Shown here: positions 20,692-38,090 of the stretch, piece after piece
How positions within the stretch are numbered: position 1 is the first letter of the stretch
Layout: each line of letters begins with the position of its first letter
NCBI GenBank assembly: GCA_002011125.2
Contig: MTMF02000009.1
Location: forward strand, 1,022,989 to 1,086,988
Reading direction: 5' to 3'
DNA from: Candidatus Hydrothermarchaeum profundi
GTDB lineage: Archaea > Hydrothermarchaeota > Hydrothermarchaeia > Hydrothermarchaeales > Hydrothermarchaeaceae
DNA: 64,000 nucleotides
The notes under the pieces: model-generated
What the model was told of the DNA's origin: nothing
What the model saw: only the letters and a program-made list of their open reading frames with translations
Databases searched by the model: none
Translations under genes and position numbers: made by a program

Positions 20692-22662
20692 TTAATAGGA
20701 TTCGTCTATCCCCCATGCGTTTTTAACTATAGCGGGGATTAACTGAAGCGCAATTCCAGCACATAAAAGAATGCTTCCGATCCATATTAGTGATACCAGT
20801 GGAATTGTTTTTATAGAGATTAAAATCAGATTTGATTGATACCCATAAAAAACCACGTAAAAATCTACTATTCCCCTCAAGATCTTAACTTTTGGATATT
20901 GCCCATATCGAGCGTCATCGATGAATAAAGCTTTTTCCTCTCCTAGAGAGTTTTCACCAGCAATAATCTCAAATCTAACATATTGGTACCAGTTGCCTTT
21001 GACATTCTGAATGTCTAGACCATTTAATTTTATTTTGTGACCCCCAAAATCTTTCATGGTGCCGATTTCTTGAGGGTACTGAAAGACTAATCTATACTCC
21101 TTTTCAAAAACAGTACTTGTTACTACACCAATTATTATTAAAACCATGCCTAAGTGGATCAGTTGCGGTCCTATTCTTTTGATTATTCTTTTCATATTCC
21201 TTTGTTTAAGTATGGTAAAGACCCGATATCCAATTCCAAAAAGCGCGAATACTACGAAAAAAATAGAATAATTAAAATATTTTGTATGCACTGGGCCTAT
21301 TATACCTATCAAAAGGTTAATAATTACCGCTCCCCCAGCGAGTTTTAAAAGATGATCTTTCTTAATAGTGCCTAAAAGTAAACAGAAACCCGTTAAAAGT
21401 ACCGCAAAATCAATCAAGAGAAAGCACCACTTATTGAAGAATTCTTTAGTAGTAGGGATTTCAACTCCTTTAAGAATCTTCATTATAACAGGATAAGTTA
21501 AACCCCATAACAGGACAACTGATATCCCAATAAAGACTACAACTGCCAAATATTGGGCAGTCGATATGGAAATAGAAGGCTTCTTTTTTGATAGCTTTAT
21601 ATTCTTTCTAGAAAGTTCTCTAAGAACTAAAACAGAGGAAATTATTGTTGTGATAATTATAAAACTTGCTAAGTGGGGACCTACAGTAGTACTCGCATAT
21701 CCATGAACGGATTTAAGAATGCCACTACGGGTTATGAAAGTTGTATAAAACACAAATATTAATGTGAAAAGACCAAGAGCAGGCCCTAAAATCTCAAATT
21801 TTCTTCTTGTACGATACATATAGGAAGCATGCATAAACGCTGTTAAGCTTACCCATAATAGTAGAGAGGCAGTTTCTACAGGGTCCCACGTCCAGTAACC
21901 ACCATACGATAGTTCTTCGTATGCCCAGACCCCACCAATAGTGATACCTATCGTTAAAAAAAGCCATGAGAACCTAGCCCAGTATCTCGAGATTTCTTCC
22001 CAGTCGCCAGTTCTTTCTAGAAAGTATATTAGTGAGGCAGCAAAAGGTACGGTTAGTGTTGCATAAGCTATAAACACAATAGGAGGATGGAGAGCCATCC
22101 AAGGGCTCATTAAAAAGGGATTCAATCCATTACCATCTATGAATCCTCTTTTGGGATCGTATTTCCCAATTGACCGGTAGTAATTTAATATAGTATCAAG
22201 AGGGATATTATTTTTGATCGCATAATCTTCAAAGCTACTAATAGTAGTTTGGAATGGATTCAGCAAGTACACCATTGCTAAAAGGATTAATCCTATTGAT
22301 AATACGATAATACCTGTTTTTCTGCGAAATTTCTCCCTTTTTTTGATGAGTACTATAGATGATAATATAGTCGCCCATGCCCACAGCAGGAAAGTTCCTT
22401 CTTGGCCTGCCCAAACCGCAGATAACTTATATGGAAGCGGTGTATCAACGCTTGAGTGAGTAAAGACATAGTTGATGTTATAATTCGTAAAGAAATAATA
22501 GGTGAGAACTGATACCACTACGGTAATCAATATTCCCAAGAGATTAAACCCACTATAAATCAAAGGGTCATATTCTCGTTTCTTGGCTTCGCAATATATT
22601 GTTAAAAATAAAAGCCCAGAACCCAATATGAGGGAGAATATCAGTAGTACGTTGCCTATCAA
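20692..22662 (-). CDS. ccmF: Cytochrome c haem lyase CcmF, second copy
   Basis: 656-residue multi-spanning membrane protein with the haem-handling motif SYGGYWTWDPVET, LHPPIVFIAYA and HLGMVLIIIG. Its external C-terminal loop is shorter than in the 781-residue CcmF at 322-2667 and lacks the OB-fold insert, so this is the standard form. It overlaps the upstream UMP kinase gene by 4 nt, an unusual neighbour for a cytochrome maturation gene. Confidence 0.93.
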   Translation of the reverse strand: MIGNVLLIFSLILGSGLLFLTIYCEAKKREYDPLIYSGFNLLGILITVVVSVLTYYFFTNYNINYVFTHSSVDTPLPYKLSAVWAGQEGTFLLWAWATILSSIVLIKKREKFRRKTGIIVLSIGLILLAMVYLLNPFQTTISSFEDYAIKNNIPLDTILNYYRSIGKYDPKRGFIDGNGLNPFLMSPWMALHPPIVFIAYATLTVPFAASLIYFLERTGDWEEISRYWARFSWLFLTIGITIGGVWAYEELSYGGYWTWDPVETASLLLWVSLTAFMHASYMYRTRRKFEILGPALGLFTLIFVFYTTFITRSGILKSVHGYASTTVGPHLASFIIITTIISSVLVLRELSRKNIKLSKKKPSISISTAQYLAVVVFIGISVVLLWGLTYPVIMKILKGVEIPTTKEFFNKWCFLLIDFAVLLTGFCLLLGTIKKDHLLKLAGGAVIINLLIGIIGPVHTKYFNYSIFFVVFALFGIGYRVFTILKQRNMKRIIKRIGPQLIHLGMVLIIIGVVTSTVFEKEYRLVFQYPQEIGTMKDFGGHKIKLNGLDIQNVKGNWYQYVRFEIIAGENSLGEEKALFIDDARYGQYPKVKILRGIVDFYVVFYGYQSNLILISIKTIPLVSLIWIGSILLCAGIALQLIPAIVKNAWGIDESY

Positions 22663-26644: not shown

Positions 26645-27001
26645 ATGGAGGACTACGGTAAAAGTCTCATGGATATACGGAGAGAGGAAAGAGAAAAGCT
26701 TAGGAGAATATTCTCCTTAATCTTGAGTGTTACTTCTATTGTGCTCGGTGCGGCTCTCGCTTATGTGGGATACTCGGAAGAGAGTTTGTTGGGTTTATTC
26801 TTTTATTTTCTTTTTGGTCTGGGCTTAGTTTTTGTAGGCTTCCAAATTTTTCTCATGGAAACTAAAGAAAAAACTAAGAAAGTCGAAAATAATCCACCTC
26901 AAGAACAACAAGAGAAGCCTGATGTTGATAAGTGCCCTCATTGTGGAGCGGATATAACTACGGCTGGAAAGTTTTGCGGAAGCTGTGGAAGGATGTTATG
27001 A
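26645..27001 (+). CDS. Membrane protein with C-terminal zinc ribbon
   Basis: 118 residues: a charged N-terminal helix, two membrane spans (about 23-64), a polar linker and a C-terminal zinc ribbon CPHCGADITTAGKFCGSCGR (four cysteines). This layout is common among archaeal membrane proteins of unknown function. The last 6 nt overlap the convergent mtxX gene. Confidence 0.8.
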   Translation: MEDYGKSLMDIRREEREKLRRIFSLILSVTSIVLGAALAYVGYSEESLLGLFFYFLFGLGLVFVGFQIFLMETKEKTKKVENNPPQEQQEKPDVDKCPHCGADITTAGKFCGSCGRML

Positions 27002-27787
27002 GAGAGCCTTAGCCGTTTTAAAAGCTCTTAAATAGCCATCTACCGAATTAGCTCTTGAGGTATCGATTAGACACTTATCAACTCCGACTATGGGGGCTCC
27101 ATAGCCTTTACCATTTCCTATAAAAACCAAAGTTCTAAAAATCAAGTTTCCTGTAATGCCATTTGGGGCTATTATAAAATTTGCTCCATCTTTAATGGCA
27201 TCTTCAATTAATATCGAGTAATTTTTAACATTTCTTAAGGAACTAGAGATAAACTCGGCTTCGTCTAATGTCTTGTCTACTAGAGCATGCCTACCGTAAT
27301 CCTGCTTCCTACCACCACTTAATATACCAATTCTAGGTGTTAATCCAAGTTTCATTAGAATCTTGGTGCCCTCACTAATCAGAAAGGTCTTATCCTCAAT
27401 GCTCCATCCCTCGTCTATACCAACCGGAGCAAGCATAAAGGATTTCCCTTCGGGGGATTCTAATATTGCTATTCTACTTATTTTAGTATTGAAAGCATTT
27501 TTAATTGCTTGGATGAAACGCTTCGCATCTCCTGATCCCCTTATTGCAACATCTACCCTTCCTTTTTTTACTAATTCAACTAAATAGTTCTCTACATTTT
27601 TGGATTCTACTACCTCCGTATTTACATTGCTAGAAAATTTTAGTGGGGTAACTACGGTTACCTCTCCCTCTATTTCTGCAGCCTCTATGATCTTATTTAC
27701 ATACCCCTCTCTTTCGATTCCTGCACCAATAGCTATTTTTACTTTTTTTGCTTGTGCAACTTTCTCCAAAGCCTTTATAATGTCCAT
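26996..27787 (-). CDS. mtxX: MtxX homologue (methanogenesis marker protein 4)
   Basis: 263 residues. It has the phosphotransacetylase-like fold of MtxX, with family stretches VRIGILSGGRKQDYGRH-like (here PRIGILSGGRKQDYGRH), GANFIIAPNGITGNLIFRT and the N-terminal KIAIGAGIEREG. In methanogens MtxX occurs near methyltransferase genes, and the family is a conserved marker of methanogenesis; its reaction is unknown. Its presence supports a methanogen-type C1 metabolism in this organism. It is monocistronic here, divergent from uppS. Confidence 0.88.
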   Translation of the reverse strand: MDIIKALEKVAQAKKVKIAIGAGIEREGYVNKIIEAAEIEGEVTVVTPLKFSSNVNTEVVESKNVENYLVELVKKGRVDVAIRGSGDAKRFIQAIKNAFNTKISRIAILESPEGKSFMLAPVGIDEGWSIEDKTFLISEGTKILMKLGLTPRIGILSGGRKQDYGRHALVDKTLDEAEFISSSLRNVKNYSILIEDAIKDGANFIIAPNGITGNLIFRTLVFIGNGKGYGAPIVGVDKCLIDTSRANSVDGYLRAFKTAKALS

Positions 27788-32290: not shown

Positions 32291-33922
32291 ATGGGTCTAT
32301 TAAAGATATTGAGGGTTAATCTCTCAAAGGAAAGTATTAAGGAGGAAGAGATTGAACAGGGAGATTTCATTGGAGGCAGAGGCCTTGGAGTGTATATTGC
32401 ATCGCGGGAACTTGATCCTAAAGTCGAAGCGTTCTCTGAAGGCAATAAGATAATCATATCTAACGGCCCATTAGCGGGTACTTTAGTTCCCTTCAGTGGT
32501 AGATGTAATGTAACAAGTAAGTCGCCACTCACAGGTACCCTATTTAGTTCTAATGCGGGAGGGATGTTTAGTTATGAGCTCAGCAAGACAGGATATGATG
32601 TCATAATAATTGAAGGAAAATCTAATGACCCAGTATATTTGAAAGTAGGAGACGATTCACAGATAGTTAATGCCACAGAGATATGGGGGAAAACTGTTTT
32701 TGAAACTCTTGAGTTCTTTAAAAAAACAGGACTTGAAAAAGGGAAGGTAGCATGTATAGGGCCTGCTGGTGAAAATTTAGTGAGATTTGCGAATATAATG
32801 GTACAAGGCCACAGAGCATTCGGAAGGGGCGGTTTAGGTTCTGTTATGGGGTTCAAAAAGCTAAAGGCAGTTGTACTGGACGGTTCTCAACATAAGAAGA
32901 AGAAATTCGAGGAGTTAGCGAGAGAATTAAGAAAGAAAATCAAGAGAATCTCAAGTCCACTTAAAACGCAGGGGACATCGAACATATTAGCAATAATTCA
33001 AGAGATTAGGTCTCTTCCTACAAAGAACTTCCAGCATAAGGAGTTCGAAAATGCGGATATGATAAATGGGGATGCTCTCAGGAAATATACGCTCCGAAGT
33101 GATACATGTTATTCTTGTATTATAGCCTGCAAAAGGATTACTCGTAGCGAGAGATATGGTATAGTTACAGATGGTCCGGAGTATGAGACTCTTGCAGCTT
33201 TTGGGTCGTACATTTGCAACTATGATATCGAAAGCATAATCAAAGCTAATGATCTTTGCGATAATATGGGAATTGACACTATTTCTATGGGAAGCGCTAT
33301 CGCACATTTCATGGAGGCCTCTGGGAAGTGGGGCGATTATGAATTAGCCCACGAGCTGATAGTTAAAACTGCGTATAGAGATGGAATCGGAGATAAGCTC
33401 GCAGAGGGTTCAGCAAGATTTGCGAAAGATATGGGTATTGAGGCGATAGCAGTTAAAGGAATGGATCTTCCAGCATATCATCCTCAAGGTCTATATGGCC
33501 AGGGTTTAGCGTTTGTAACGAGTAATAGAGGGGCGGACCACCTATATTCCTCTTATTATCTAGAGGAATTAAAAAGGAAAGATAGAGAAGCTCTTTCTAA
33601 AGAGAAGATTCCTGAGATTATCGCTAATGAAAATAAAAATGCAATCCTTGATTCGCTCATATTATGCAAGTTTTCACGGAGGTTTTACTCTATTGAAGAT
33701 TTCTTAAAGCTATTATCCATTACAATGTCTAGAGATATCAGTGAAGAAGAATTTTATGAGATGGGAGGAAAAATTATCACAGAAGAGAGAAGGTTCAATT
33801 TTAAAGCTGGAATAACGAAGGAGGATGTCTTGCCAAGTAGGATTTCGATCCCGGGTTTAAAAGAGGCGTTAAGAGAATATTACCTCCTAAGAGGATGGGA
33901 CAAGGAGGGGGCCCCTAAGTGA
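32291..33922 (+). CDS. Aldehyde ferredoxin oxidoreductase family protein
   Basis: 543 residues. It has the N-terminal tungstopterin domain (FIGGRGLGVYIASREL, SNGPLAGTLVPFSGR, FSSNAGGMFSYELSKTGYD) and iron-sulfur cysteines in DTCYSCIIACKR. Family enzymes oxidise aldehydes to acids with ferredoxin using a tungsten bis-pterin. It is shorter than typical AORs (about 600), with a reduced C-terminal region, so the substrate may differ. It overlaps the convergent gene at 33915-34826 by 8 nt. Confidence 0.9.
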   Translation: MGLLKILRVNLSKESIKEEEIEQGDFIGGRGLGVYIASRELDPKVEAFSEGNKIIISNGPLAGTLVPFSGRCNVTSKSPLTGTLFSSNAGGMFSYELSKTGYDVIIIEGKSNDPVYLKVGDDSQIVNATEIWGKTVFETLEFFKKTGLEKGKVACIGPAGENLVRFANIMVQGHRAFGRGGLGSVMGFKKLKAVVLDGSQHKKKKFEELARELRKKIKRISSPLKTQGTSNILAIIQEIRSLPTKNFQHKEFENADMINGDALRKYTLRSDTCYSCIIACKRITRSERYGIVTDGPEYETLAAFGSYICNYDIESIIKANDLCDNMGIDTISMGSAIAHFMEASGKWGDYELAHELIVKTAYRDGIGDKLAEGSARFAKDMGIEAIAVKGMDLPAYHPQGLYGQGLAFVTSNRGADHLYSSYYLEELKRKDREALSKEKIPEIIANENKNAILDSLILCKFSRRFYSIEDFLKLLSITMSRDISEEEFYEMGGKIITEERRFNFKAGITKEDVLPSRISIPGLKEALREYYLLRGWDKEGAPK

Positions 33923-34826
33923 GCTTTTTTAAAATGTTATCTAAAGCTGTTAGAATTTCCTCATAGCCATCTCCCCAATGCACGGTATATCCTAGGTGGC
34001 CATTAATCATTAGGGGACCGGTTTTATTTTTCAAACAACATCTCGTTATAAAGTATCCATCCACTTTATGCTTTCTAGGGCAGATATTATAAAATATAAA
34101 TCTCTTGCCAGGGAAGTTCTCGCTGAATACTTCTTTGGATACTTTGCATCCTATTAGAACTATTTTATCATTCTTTACGTCAAATTTTTTATCTAGGAAA
34201 ACAACTTTTGAACCATTAAGTACTTCCGGTATTCCTGAAGCCGAGCAAGGGAGTACAAGAAGAGAAGGTCTAAATTTTTTAGTTAATTCTCTAGCAATTT
34301 TTAAAATATTTATTCTTTTAAATTTAAACGATACCGGTATATCAAGTTGTGTTTTTCGGATGGTCTTTAAACTTTCCAGTAGTCTTGAAGGGTAGGGAGG
34401 GACAACATCTATAACATTAATAGTAGGAACTTTTTCAGGGACTATAGCAAAGTTCACATGATCATATTTCCCGAAAAAAACGACCCCCTTTACTCTCTTT
34501 CTCCTAGCTATCTCATGGGCAACTGTAAGGATTTCTGAATTACTAAGCGGATTTATTTTACTGCGAATAATCGCAGTATCCTCTGCCTTTGAGAGAACTT
34601 CTATTCCTTCAACTTTTCTCATAAAGGAAAAATTATCATTCGTTTTATCCAAAGGCTCCTCTTTTCTAACTCTAATGATTGTTGCATTGTCCGTCTTTTT
34701 ATTATAAAGAACAAGATATTCTGAAGAGAAATATACTTTCTTGTTTCTTGCTATCTCTCGGATTTCACGTTCATCATTTAGGTCTTTTTCAACTTCAACT
34801 AGCCCTACCATTTTGCAATGGTGCAT
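33915..34826 (-). CDS. Uncharacterised protein in the marker-11 operon
   Basis: About 303 residues from the ATG at 34826, which is 2 nt after the radical SAM stop. Visible features: VIDVVPPYPSRLLE, LVLPCSASGIPEV, FYNICPRKHK, TRCCLKNKTGPLMINGHLGY and TVHWGDGYEEI near the C-terminus. Six or so cysteines could bind metal or an Fe-S cluster. I believe it matches a methanogen-associated family of unknown function (DUF7714), but cannot verify this. It is the last gene of the operon 38058-33915. Confidence 0.75.
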   Translation of the reverse strand: MHHCKMVGLVEVEKDLNDEREIREIARNKKVYFSSEYLVLYNKKTDNATIIRVRKEEPLDKTNDNFSFMRKVEGIEVLSKAEDTAIIRSKINPLSNSEILTVAHEIARRKRVKGVVFFGKYDHVNFAIVPEKVPTINVIDVVPPYPSRLLESLKTIRKTQLDIPVSFKFKRINILKIARELTKKFRPSLLVLPCSASGIPEVLNGSKVVFLDKKFDVKNDKIVLIGCKVSKEVFSENFPGKRFIFYNICPRKHKVDGYFITRCCLKNKTGPLMINGHLGYTVHWGDGYEEILTALDNILKKLT

Positions 34827-34828
34827 AA

Positions 34829-35794
34829 TTAAACCTCTGTTGGAGATAATTGACAGGCAGAACAGAGCCCGCACATAGTCTTTCCAGTATATATGAGCCC
34901 GTAATTATTGAGTATCTCCTTCTGACTTCTAGAAAGAAATAATATTCTAGCTGCATTTGGTCTTTCTGCTTTTCCCATTGTTGCTTCTATTAATGGAGCA
35001 CTATTTCTCGGCATTGTAAGAGGTCTTAGATGCGCTATAACCCCTATAGACGTCAGTTCTTCCAGCCCTCTTATTACGGTAGAATCACTTTCTCCTAACC
35101 CTATTATCACATTGGAGAATACTTTACCCTCACCGAACGTATTTACTGCTTCTTTGAGATGGTGAAGAATATACTCTAAGGACTTATTTGGGCAGACTTT
35201 TCTCAGGATTTTATGATCGAAACTCTCAATATTATATTTTATCTCATCTACCCCTGCTTGGAATAGTTTTTCTGAGGCACCTTCAGCAGGGTAAATTGAA
35301 ACTCCAATTGGACAATTGAATTCCTCTCTTAACTCTTTAACGATATTCACCATTTTTTCTAACTCTAGTGAGGGGGTTAGGGGTATTCCGGAGGTTAAGG
35401 AAATAGCCTTTAGCATGGGATCAACAGCAGCATTCCTAACAATTTTAATGACATCCCGATTATCTCTTTTTGCCTTTAACTCGCAGAATTTACAGCCATA
35501 GTTACAGGAAGTACTAACCATTATGTAGGCCTGTTCTGGGCAGTGAGATAACGGCTTCTCAAGCCTGCACTCCAAAGTTCTATCACCTAAGAAAATCCGA
35601 TTTTTTCCATTTTCGTTCTTGATTTTTAATTGTGAATCTTTAGATAGTATCAGTCTGATTCTCTGTTTGCCCACTCTCGCGAATAGGGATGGAGCACCAG
35701 CACCTGGGCCTCCTGAACTTATAGAAAGCATTTTTGATGGTATTCCCTCAGCATGTATTTCCCCAATAGCTAGGAGTTCTGCCTTAGATATCAT
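34829..35794 (-). CDS. Radical SAM enzyme, BioB/HmdB-like
   Basis: 321 residues. The radical SAM motif CNYGCKFC has Cys 97, 101 and 104 (CX3CX2C). A second cluster CGLCSAC (308, 311, 314) sits at the C-terminus and could hold an auxiliary Fe-S cluster. The barrel includes VIIGLGESD and HLRPLTMPRN, similar to the biotin-synthase/HmdB/PylB group. It overlaps marker protein 11 by 4 nt (ATGA). It is not the arginine methylase Mmp10, whose N-terminal cysteine pattern differs. Substrate unknown. Confidence 0.85.
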   Translation of the reverse strand: MISKAELLAIGEIHAEGIPSKMLSISSGGPGAGAPSLFARVGKQRIRLILSKDSQLKIKNENGKNRIFLGDRTLECRLEKPLSHCPEQAYIMVSTSCNYGCKFCELKAKRDNRDVIKIVRNAAVDPMLKAISLTSGIPLTPSLELEKMVNIVKELREEFNCPIGVSIYPAEGASEKLFQAGVDEIKYNIESFDHKILRKVCPNKSLEYILHHLKEAVNTFGEGKVFSNVIIGLGESDSTVIRGLEELTSIGVIAHLRPLTMPRNSAPLIEATMGKAERPNAARILFLSRSQKEILNNYGLIYTGKTMCGLCSACQLSPTEV

Positions 35795-36681
35795 AGTTCT
35801 ACTCCTTCATCTGGATCATTATAAAATGCTATTGCCGCAGCAGAACCTATAAGTCCCCTTTCTCCGGTTATAGGATATAATTTTATATTACATTTTTCTG
35901 AGATATCGTAAACAGAATTTAAATTTACTAATCTCCTTTTTACAAGCTTCCCGTAATCTCTTATTTCTTTTTTTAACTCAAAATCATTTAAAACAGCCAT
36001 CCCCGTGTTTTCTGAAAGAGTATTTTTTTCGAGCATAAGCTCAAACTTTTTAATTAAACCATCCACATCATTTGTAGCAAATTCAACAGCAGTACTAGCA
36101 CAGTTCTGTGTTTTATAGGGATTTTTGGAATAAAGTTGAACTATGGAGTGATAAAGATAGCTTCCAATACCCTCTTTCTCTATCATTGAAGCTATATTGT
36201 GTGTAAGAGACCATGTTGCACCTTTATTCTGATTGTCTGTGTCATCCACACCTACAACAACTCTCTCTTTTCTCGGTAAAACAAGTTTAGCTCTTACAAG
36301 GCTACTTCCTCCAGGTTCTCCAATCATCTCAGCACTAATGACTCCTTTAGCTTTCTCTCTCGCCGCTATACCAACGCTGCTTCCCCCTAATCCACAATAA
36401 CCTATTTCAACGATTTTATCTTCGATAGATACACTTTCTATGCCAAAGGGTGAAATGCTGGGTTGGAGATTAACCGGTTTTTCACCGACTCTTAGCCTGA
36501 ATCTGTTTTGGGTACCCTCCCTCCTAGCATCTATAATTAAAGGAGAAGTCCTTTTAAGATGATATACTATCCATGCTGAACCCCCCTGTGTTGGTGACTC
36601 TTCGATTAAGTCGACAAATTTTGCAGTTTTATCGACTATCGCATCTATTCTGCTATAGGATACCGACCATTTATGATCCAT
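35791..36681 (-). CDS. Methanogenesis marker protein 11
   Basis: 296 residues. The central motif VVVGVDDTDNQNKGATWSL (about 141-159) and the C-terminal GERGLIGSAAAIAF match marker protein 11 as I know it. The DDTD block also occurs in TiaS-type tRNA enzymes, suggesting a nucleotide-dependent reaction. The protein is conserved across methanogens but has no assigned reaction. It lies 15 nt after the MtmB-like gene and overlaps the radical SAM gene. Confidence 0.85.
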   Translation of the reverse strand: MDHKWSVSYSRIDAIVDKTAKFVDLIEESPTQGGSAWIVYHLKRTSPLIIDARREGTQNRFRLRVGEKPVNLQPSISPFGIESVSIEDKIVEIGYCGLGGSSVGIAAREKAKGVISAEMIGEPGGSSLVRAKLVLPRKERVVVGVDDTDNQNKGATWSLTHNIASMIEKEGIGSYLYHSIVQLYSKNPYKTQNCASTAVEFATNDVDGLIKKFELMLEKNTLSENTGMAVLNDFELKKEIRDYGKLVKRRLVNLNSVYDISEKCNIKLYPITGERGLIGSAAAIAFYNDPDEGVEL

Positions 36682-36696
36682 ATAAATTATCCAATA

Positions 36697-38058
36697 TTAT
36701 ATGTCCAATCCCATATTCGCGATATCTGATTTAACCTCGCTCCAGATCTGTAGATAGTCTGATGAAGGCGATATCTCTTTAGGCGAGTAGCATTCTGTAA
36801 AACTTTTTCCCTCAGGTATCCTACCTTCCAGAAGATTGTCTTCATAACGATTTATAAGTTCATTTAACACATCGTTAGCTTCTTTAATATCTATCTTTGC
36901 AGCAACTTCGCTCACTTCCTTAGCAACTCTAGCTTCCATTCCAGTATAATAATCTGTTTTTGCCCCTTTTGTTGCACCAGAGCTGAATATCATGTCTGCT
37001 CCGCATAACGTATCAACAATAGTTTGGGCAGCGATTTCATAACATAACATATCAGTACAAGGTTCTCCTCCGGCCCAGATCCAATTGTCAACAATAATAT
37101 CGAATCTTTTTTTAACAGCTAGTAGGCTAGAAGCTAGTACCCATAATGTGCCCTTCTCCGTACTTGTAGAGGTTCTTATGCTTGAGGGGGATGTGCCTGA
37201 TGTTGTAGCTCCTAACAGATAGTCAAGTATTATTTCCGCTGTGCTTACTATCGCAGTTTCCTCTGGTCCTCCTATATACCCCACCATGGGGCACTGGCTG
37301 GCTTCTAATATAAGTTTATTATGTTTTATGTAATATAGTCTGTTTAATAGATTTATATCTATTTTTAGCTCGTTTAGAGGCGCTAGATTGAACATGTCAG
37401 TTTCTCTCATCCCCCCCGGCGAGTAGCCCGAATTTAGAGATACTGCCGAAGTTCCAGACATAGGGCCTACGATACATAAACCCGGTTTCTGTGCTTTCTT
37501 TATAGCTTCTCTGATCAACCTAACTTCATGTAATACGGCTCCCACTTCTATAGGAGTCCCTTTCTTTATGCTAAGATTGTGGTAGGTTGTAAGGCATCCT
37601 CCTATAATCCCATCTATTTCTTCTTTTGCGTAGCTATATAGAACATCTCGATATATATTCTCTGAAACAGGGCAACCACATACTCCGCCAACAATTAGGG
37701 GAGCTTTTTTCTCTCCTATTTTTCTGGCAGTGATGTCTCTAAGCTCTTCCCCACTGCCGATCGATACAGTTGAAGATGCGTCTTTTAATGCAGTATGAAT
37801 CTCTTTTTCATTGAATGTTACTCGAGTAGAGGTTATCCCAGAATACTGTAAACCCACTTCGCATAGCAAGTCTACAGCAGCATCGAAAAGATTTTTAGTC
37901 AAGTTTTCATCTGTAGGTATTATCTCTGAAGGAGTATATTGAATCTCGTATTCATTTTTCAGTTCGGCTGCTTTTTTTAGTAAAATCATATCAAAGTCTG
38001 TCTCTGAAATTTGTTCTCCTCCTTCACATCTATTCCAGAGTTCAATAGCACTCTCCAT
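36697..38058 (-). CDS. MtmB-family methyltransferase homologue without pyrrolysine
   Basis: 453 residues, nearly the length of monomethylamine methyltransferase MtmB (458). Matching blocks include EIIPTDENLTKNLFDAA, KPGLCIVGPMSG, PLNELKID, GYIGGPEET, GGEPCTDM, TGMEARVAKEV and the C-terminal FTECYSPKEISPSSDYLQ. MtmB has pyrrolysine (a UAG codon) at residue 202; here the aligned residue is Val 197 (GTA, complement 37468-37470). Neighbouring acidic residues that I recall as contacting pyrrolysine also look replaced. It probably keeps the TIM-barrel fold but not monomethylamine chemistry. AGGAGGT lies 6 nt before the ATG. Confidence 0.88.
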   Translation of the reverse strand: MESAIELWNRCEGGEQISETDFDMILLKKAAELKNEYEIQYTPSEIIPTDENLTKNLFDAAVDLLCEVGLQYSGITSTRVTFNEKEIHTALKDASSTVSIGSGEELRDITARKIGEKKAPLIVGGVCGCPVSENIYRDVLYSYAKEEIDGIIGGCLTTYHNLSIKKGTPIEVGAVLHEVRLIREAIKKAQKPGLCIVGPMSGTSAVSLNSGYSPGGMRETDMFNLAPLNELKIDINLLNRLYYIKHNKLILEASQCPMVGYIGGPEETAIVSTAEIILDYLLGATTSGTSPSSIRTSTSTEKGTLWVLASSLLAVKKRFDIIVDNWIWAGGEPCTDMLCYEIAAQTIVDTLCGADMIFSSGATKGAKTDYYTGMEARVAKEVSEVAAKIDIKEANDVLNELINRYEDNLLEGRIPEGKSFTECYSPKEISPSSDYLQIWSEVKSDIANMGLDI

Positions 38059-38090
38059 GATCGTACCTCCTATTCTTTTTTATGTGTAGA

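Follow-up and report, generated by a model that had tools for sequence, protein, structure and literature searches.

A 64,000-nucleotide stretch of the genome of Candidatus Hydrothermarchaeum profundi (the window) contains a gene whose product resembles monomethylamine methyltransferase (MtmB) but has valine at the place of the pyrrolysine. The gene raises the question of whether its product is a working enzyme or the remnant of a pyrrolysine-containing MtmB and, if it works, which methyl donor it uses.

An intact MtmB-family protein without pyrrolysine

The reading frame of the gene (P0001, Table 1) runs on the minus strand for 453 codons to a TAA, with no internal stop and no in-frame TAG. 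Its product matches the Pfam MtmB profile (PF05369) with 355 bits (cut-off 25; E = 7.8e-106) over profile positions 4–450 of 450, and MtmB1 of M. barkeri (1L2Q/1NTH) with E = 3e-76 over chain residues 11–456, at 34% identity (152 of 442 aligned residues). The IPTD, NELKID, GGPEET and TGMEAR blocks on which the original prediction had relied are located at residues 47, 229, 263 and 372 respectively, and in the family alignment nearly all family-invariant positions are retained. An AlphaFold2 model calculated from an alignment of 26 family members (mean pLDDT 92.5, pTM 0.93) recovered the MtmB fold. Its best Foldseek matches were the three MtmB entries 1NTH, 1L2Q and 1TV2 (TM 0.96, rmsd 1.3–1.4 Å), whereas MttB and MtgB structures reached a TM of only about 0.5–0.6. 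The gene is intact and its product is a member of the MtmB TIM-barrel family along its whole length, as had been proposed.

Table 1. Positions, within the window, of the features discussed in the text.
Feature	Coordinates	Strand	Basis or remark
P0001, pyrrolysine-free MtmB-family methyltransferase of 453 aa	36697..38058	-	Pfam MtmB, 1L2Q/1NTH, AlphaFold
GTA codon of Val197, equivalent to pyrrolysine 202 of MtmB	37468..37470	-	alignment to 1L2Q chain (X202) and codon read
AGGAGG, putative ribosome-binding-like site	38066..38071	-	read from sequence; 7 bases 5' of the P0001 ATG
Methanogenesis marker protein 11 (Mmp11, TiaS-like)	35791..36681	-	TIGR03280, 322 bits (cut-off 255.8)
Radical SAM protein, variant_rSAM/MSMEG_0568-like	34829..35794	-	PF04055; NF045502 below cut-off
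DUF7714 protein, XcbA-like	33915..34874	-	PF24830, 194 bits; NF052538 (XcbA), 119.7 bits, below cut-off of 150
Mmp4/MtxX methanogenesis marker protein	26999-27787	-	TIGR03270, 222 bits
CcmF-like cytochrome c assembly genes (two)	322-2667; 20692-22662	+; -	with DsbD/DsbA-like genes in the window

Val197 aligns exactly with the pyrrolysine (X202) of 1L2Q. The original prediction had also suggested that the acidic residues near pyrrolysine are replaced. Indeed, P0001 has N224 for E229 and S254 for E259, and in addition W326 for Q333. Glu259 and Gln333, which we take to be contacts of pyrrolysine in MtmB, are kept in all 34 pyrrolysine-containing sequences. Trp326 and Trp328 of P0001 lie on the same strand and in register; the alignment and the strand register suggest that both are placed in the barrel lumen. 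In MtqB-type proteins (see below) the two positions are occupied by Tyr with mostly Phe, else Gly or another residue, so that position 326 is aromatic as it is in P0001; in a large pyrrolysine-free clade of the Methanosarcinaceae they are mostly Tyr/Trp. The pocket of P0001 is remodelled, and the protein probably does not use monomethylamine via the pyrrolysine mechanism.

Pyrrolysine in the host and the relatives of P0001

The host assembly (2.19 Mb, 97.65% complete) carries pylT, pylSn, pylSc, pylB, pylC and pylD. PylS is split into separate pylSn and pylSc, and the tRNA-Pyl has the anticodon CUA. At one locus (L078; G000:C9:1312000-1331000) the split pylSn/pylSc, pylB, pylC, pylD and tRNA-Pyl genes lie next to an MtaA/MtbA-type methylcobamide:CoM methyltransferase and to cobalt/corrinoid-looking genes. 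UAG-containing mtmB, mtbB and mttB are all present. The canonical mtmB has one in-frame TAG and adjoins the gene of an MtmC-type corrinoid protein; mtbB is accompanied by an MtbC-type protein and mttB by a third corrinoid protein (three MtxC-type proteins in the genome), and RamA is also encoded. The genes of the three corrinoid proteins lie at L003 3040-3687, L003 11514-12158 and L004 3288-3935. The host decodes UAG as pyrrolysine, and TAG is both stop and pyrrolysine codon. The original prediction had pointed to TAG as an ordinary stop, and TAG does end 16 of 71 frames called mechanically across the window. As a cue against pyrrolysine, however, the observation fails, since the full pyl set is present in the genome. 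The absence of pyrrolysine from the host, at which the TAG stops hinted, is ruled out by the tRNA-Pyl and the pyl genes. The prediction was to be overturned if the genome had pyl genes and a second mtmB with UAG and P0001 were a decayed duplicate; the first half of this holds, the second (see below) does not. McrA was not detected in the host genome or in 22 other genomes of its class.

A pyrrolysine-free branch of MtmB had been thought uncharacterised, but it has been characterised in part. MtmBs without pyrrolysine have long been recognised, and a tree of 1,061 pyrrolysine and non-pyrrolysine members includes many of the latter with a function that is not known (PMC13044021). One such homologue without pyrrolysine, MtqB of Methanococcoides methylutens Q3c, transfers methyl groups from tetramethylammonium and choline to cob(I)alamin (PMC13044021, March 2026), and a non-pyrrolysine MtmB is the protein most raised in strain DCMF on dichloromethane (PMC9768040). 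Among pyrrolysine-free MtmBs, function has been shown for only one. Members without pyrrolysine are common: in our collection of 78 distinct family members, the position is pyrrolysine in 34 and M, V, L, F, T, I or N in the other 44. P0001 is a further pyrrolysine-free MtmB of a kind already known, set apart by its isolated position, its unusual neighbourhood and the missing adjacent corrinoid gene.

MtqB is described as having an adjacent corrinoid gene, mtqC, and two pocket residues, a Met and a Cys, that are fully conserved (PMC13044021). A Methanococcoides/Methanosarcina group (L128–L132) appears to consist of MtqB relatives, because, as in that description, a corrinoid gene lies immediately upstream in the members examined and these share an invariant Cys-Met pair. 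The corrinoid-linked L052/L128 group fits the published account of MtqB better than does the largest pyrrolysine-free clade of the Methanosarcinaceae. In two Methanococcoides-type genomes (L109 and L110) the MtqB-type gene has an adjacent corrinoid gene and an MttB-family gene nearby (PF06253 for L109).

None of the relatives found exceeds 35% identity to P0001 over the length of the protein. Relatives were sought in about 970 whole genomes (in one of the searches with a Methanococcoides relative as query) and by a pattern scan of 84,980 genomes with two peptide patterns only, a scan that could miss relatives. Grouping of P0001 with the pyrrolysine MtmB of its own genome was rejected (AU p = 1e-5, delta lnL 76). 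Membership in the large Methanosarcinaceae clade, which is likewise pyrrolysine-free and mostly has Tyr/Trp where P0001 has Trp/Trp, was also rejected (AU p 0.003). In two trees P0001 was sister to a single MtqB-type sequence from Methanococcoides (95–97/93–96). With five MtqB-type sequences, which break up the long branch, the support fell to 57/71, and grouping with pyrrolysine MtmBs was equally allowed (AU p 0.46). The trees exclude two placements and leave the choice of sister group between MtqB and pyrrolysine MtmB. P0001 is deeply diverged from pyrrolysine MtmBs and from the known pyrrolysine-free clades and forms an isolated long branch close to where pyrrolysine MtmB and MtqB part.

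The neighbourhood of the gene

P0001 heads a tight, operon-like head-to-tail row of four genes. The Mmp11 gene follows after 15 bases and overlaps the radical SAM gene by 4 bases, which in turn overlaps the DUF7714 gene by 46 bases. BLAST of the host's MtbC- and MtmC-type corrinoid proteins against all frames in the window found no match. In this P0001 differs from MtmB and from the MtqB-type and several other non-pyrrolysine mtmB genes examined, which adjoin a corrinoid-protein gene. The pair of Mmp11 and radical SAM genes is also found in the order-mates L115 and L116 and in a more distant archaeon (L118), without an MtmB-like gene; of the loci compared, only the one in this genome places an MtmB-like gene next to Mmp11. 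A search of 121 genomes found DUF7714 in just 6 of them, where it adjoins different genes. Because of these two patterns, the link of the MtmB-like gene to its neighbours is suggestive only.

Inspection by eye of further DUF7714 loci (L122, L123 and L125) showed the gene flanked by leuD- and leuB-looking genes in two Methanosarcinaceae-type genomes; at L125 it precedes genes resembling nadA and aldehyde ferredoxin oxidoreductase. A literature search on methanogenesis marker 11 gave only papers on matrix metalloproteinases among the matches listed.

Proposed function and alternatives

We give roughly an even chance to the proposal, drawn from sequence and analogy, that P0001 is a corrinoid-dependent methyltransferase that works without pyrrolysine on a methyl donor activated beforehand, for example a quaternary amine. 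With valine at the barrel centre, the imine that would bind a plain amine and activate it is missing, from which we infer that the methyl group of the substrate has to be activated already. It would most likely be a small quaternary ammonium compound, the methyl of which would need no further activation, held by Trp326 and Trp328, which could form an aromatic cage; the space of the pyrrolysine–amine adduct may hold the quaternary amine itself, an argument already made for MtqB and MtgB. The acceptor of the methyl group would be cob(I)alamin bound to a corrinoid protein whose gene lies elsewhere in the genome; an MtbA/MtaA-type protein would demethylate this corrinoid protein, and RamA would reactivate it.

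The Pfam and PDB matches, the AlphaFold and Foldseek results, the pocket substitutions and the full methylamine machinery of the genome all argue for such a methyltransferase. So do the precedents of MtqB and of non-pyrrolysine members of the MttB family, the substrates of which are glycine betaine and other quaternary amines (PMC13044021). MtgB and other non-pyrrolysine members of the MttB family (2QNE, 9YCE) represent an analogous loss of pyrrolysine in a corrinoid methyltransferase TIM barrel, but belong to another family (TM only 0.56–0.58 to the P0001 model). The missing adjacent corrinoid gene and the absence of the MtqB-type Cys-Met pair speak against this proposal, as do the neighbours, which suggest a role in a cofactor or marker context and not in catabolism. 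Because P0001 branches alone close to the divergence of pyrrolysine MtmB and MtqB, and its host lineage has a split PylS (PylSn/PylSc) and no McrA that could be detected, its activity would bear on the substrate range of the MtmB family and on which form is the older, with or without pyrrolysine. Its interest lies in this deep isolated position, in the missing corrinoid partner and in the marker-11 neighbourhood in such an archaeon.

Decay of a duplicate of the host's pyrrolysine mtmB, which the original prediction had named as part of what would undo it, is extremely improbable. Although that gene is present in the same genome and the pocket residues are gone from P0001, the rejected grouping of the two, the full-length frame behind a good ribosome-binding-like site, the nearly complete set of family-invariant residues and the confident model are those of an intact, anciently diverged paralogue. 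P0001 could instead be a distant MtqB, a tetramethylammonium/choline methyltransferase as in Methanococcoides. Both proteins are free of pyrrolysine, of similar length and aromatic at the Gln333 position, both come from archaea that also have a pyrrolysine MtmB, and the two-tree sister placement is consistent with such kinship. However, support for this placement is lost when further sequences break up the long branch, and the identity to MtqB-type proteins is about 33%. The C254-M255 pair, invariant in five of five MtqB-type sequences, is S254-Q255 in P0001 (a correspondence with the logo positions of PMC13044021 that we infer). No MtqC-like gene adjoins P0001, and the host has no detectable McrA. 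We consider a distant MtqB rather unlikely.

It is likewise doubtful that P0001 and the products of its three neighbours (Mmp11, radical SAM and DUF7714/XcbA-like) act together in a biosynthetic step, for example in making or modifying a methanogenesis-type cofactor, rather than in energy metabolism. The close packing of the four genes, the recurrence of the Mmp11–radical SAM pair in other archaea and the missing corrinoid gene would fit this, but the MtmB-like gene joins the pair in this genome only among the loci compared, DUF7714 keeps other company elsewhere, and we know of no cofactor pathway that needs an MtmB-type enzyme. A more far-reaching version, in which a separate ancient pyrrolysine-free MtmB branch of an McrA-less archaeon works with these three proteins and acts on a substrate or cofactor new to the family, seems to us improbable. 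If the neighbours were partners, P0001 would provide a first handle on methanogenesis marker 11.

Two methanogenesis markers, Mmp4/MtxX and Mmp11, are encoded in the window although McrA was detected neither in the host genome nor in its class. Homologues of Mmp4 and UppS are contiguous with the Mmp11 and radical SAM genes in the order-mates L115 and L116, and the group is split in the host.
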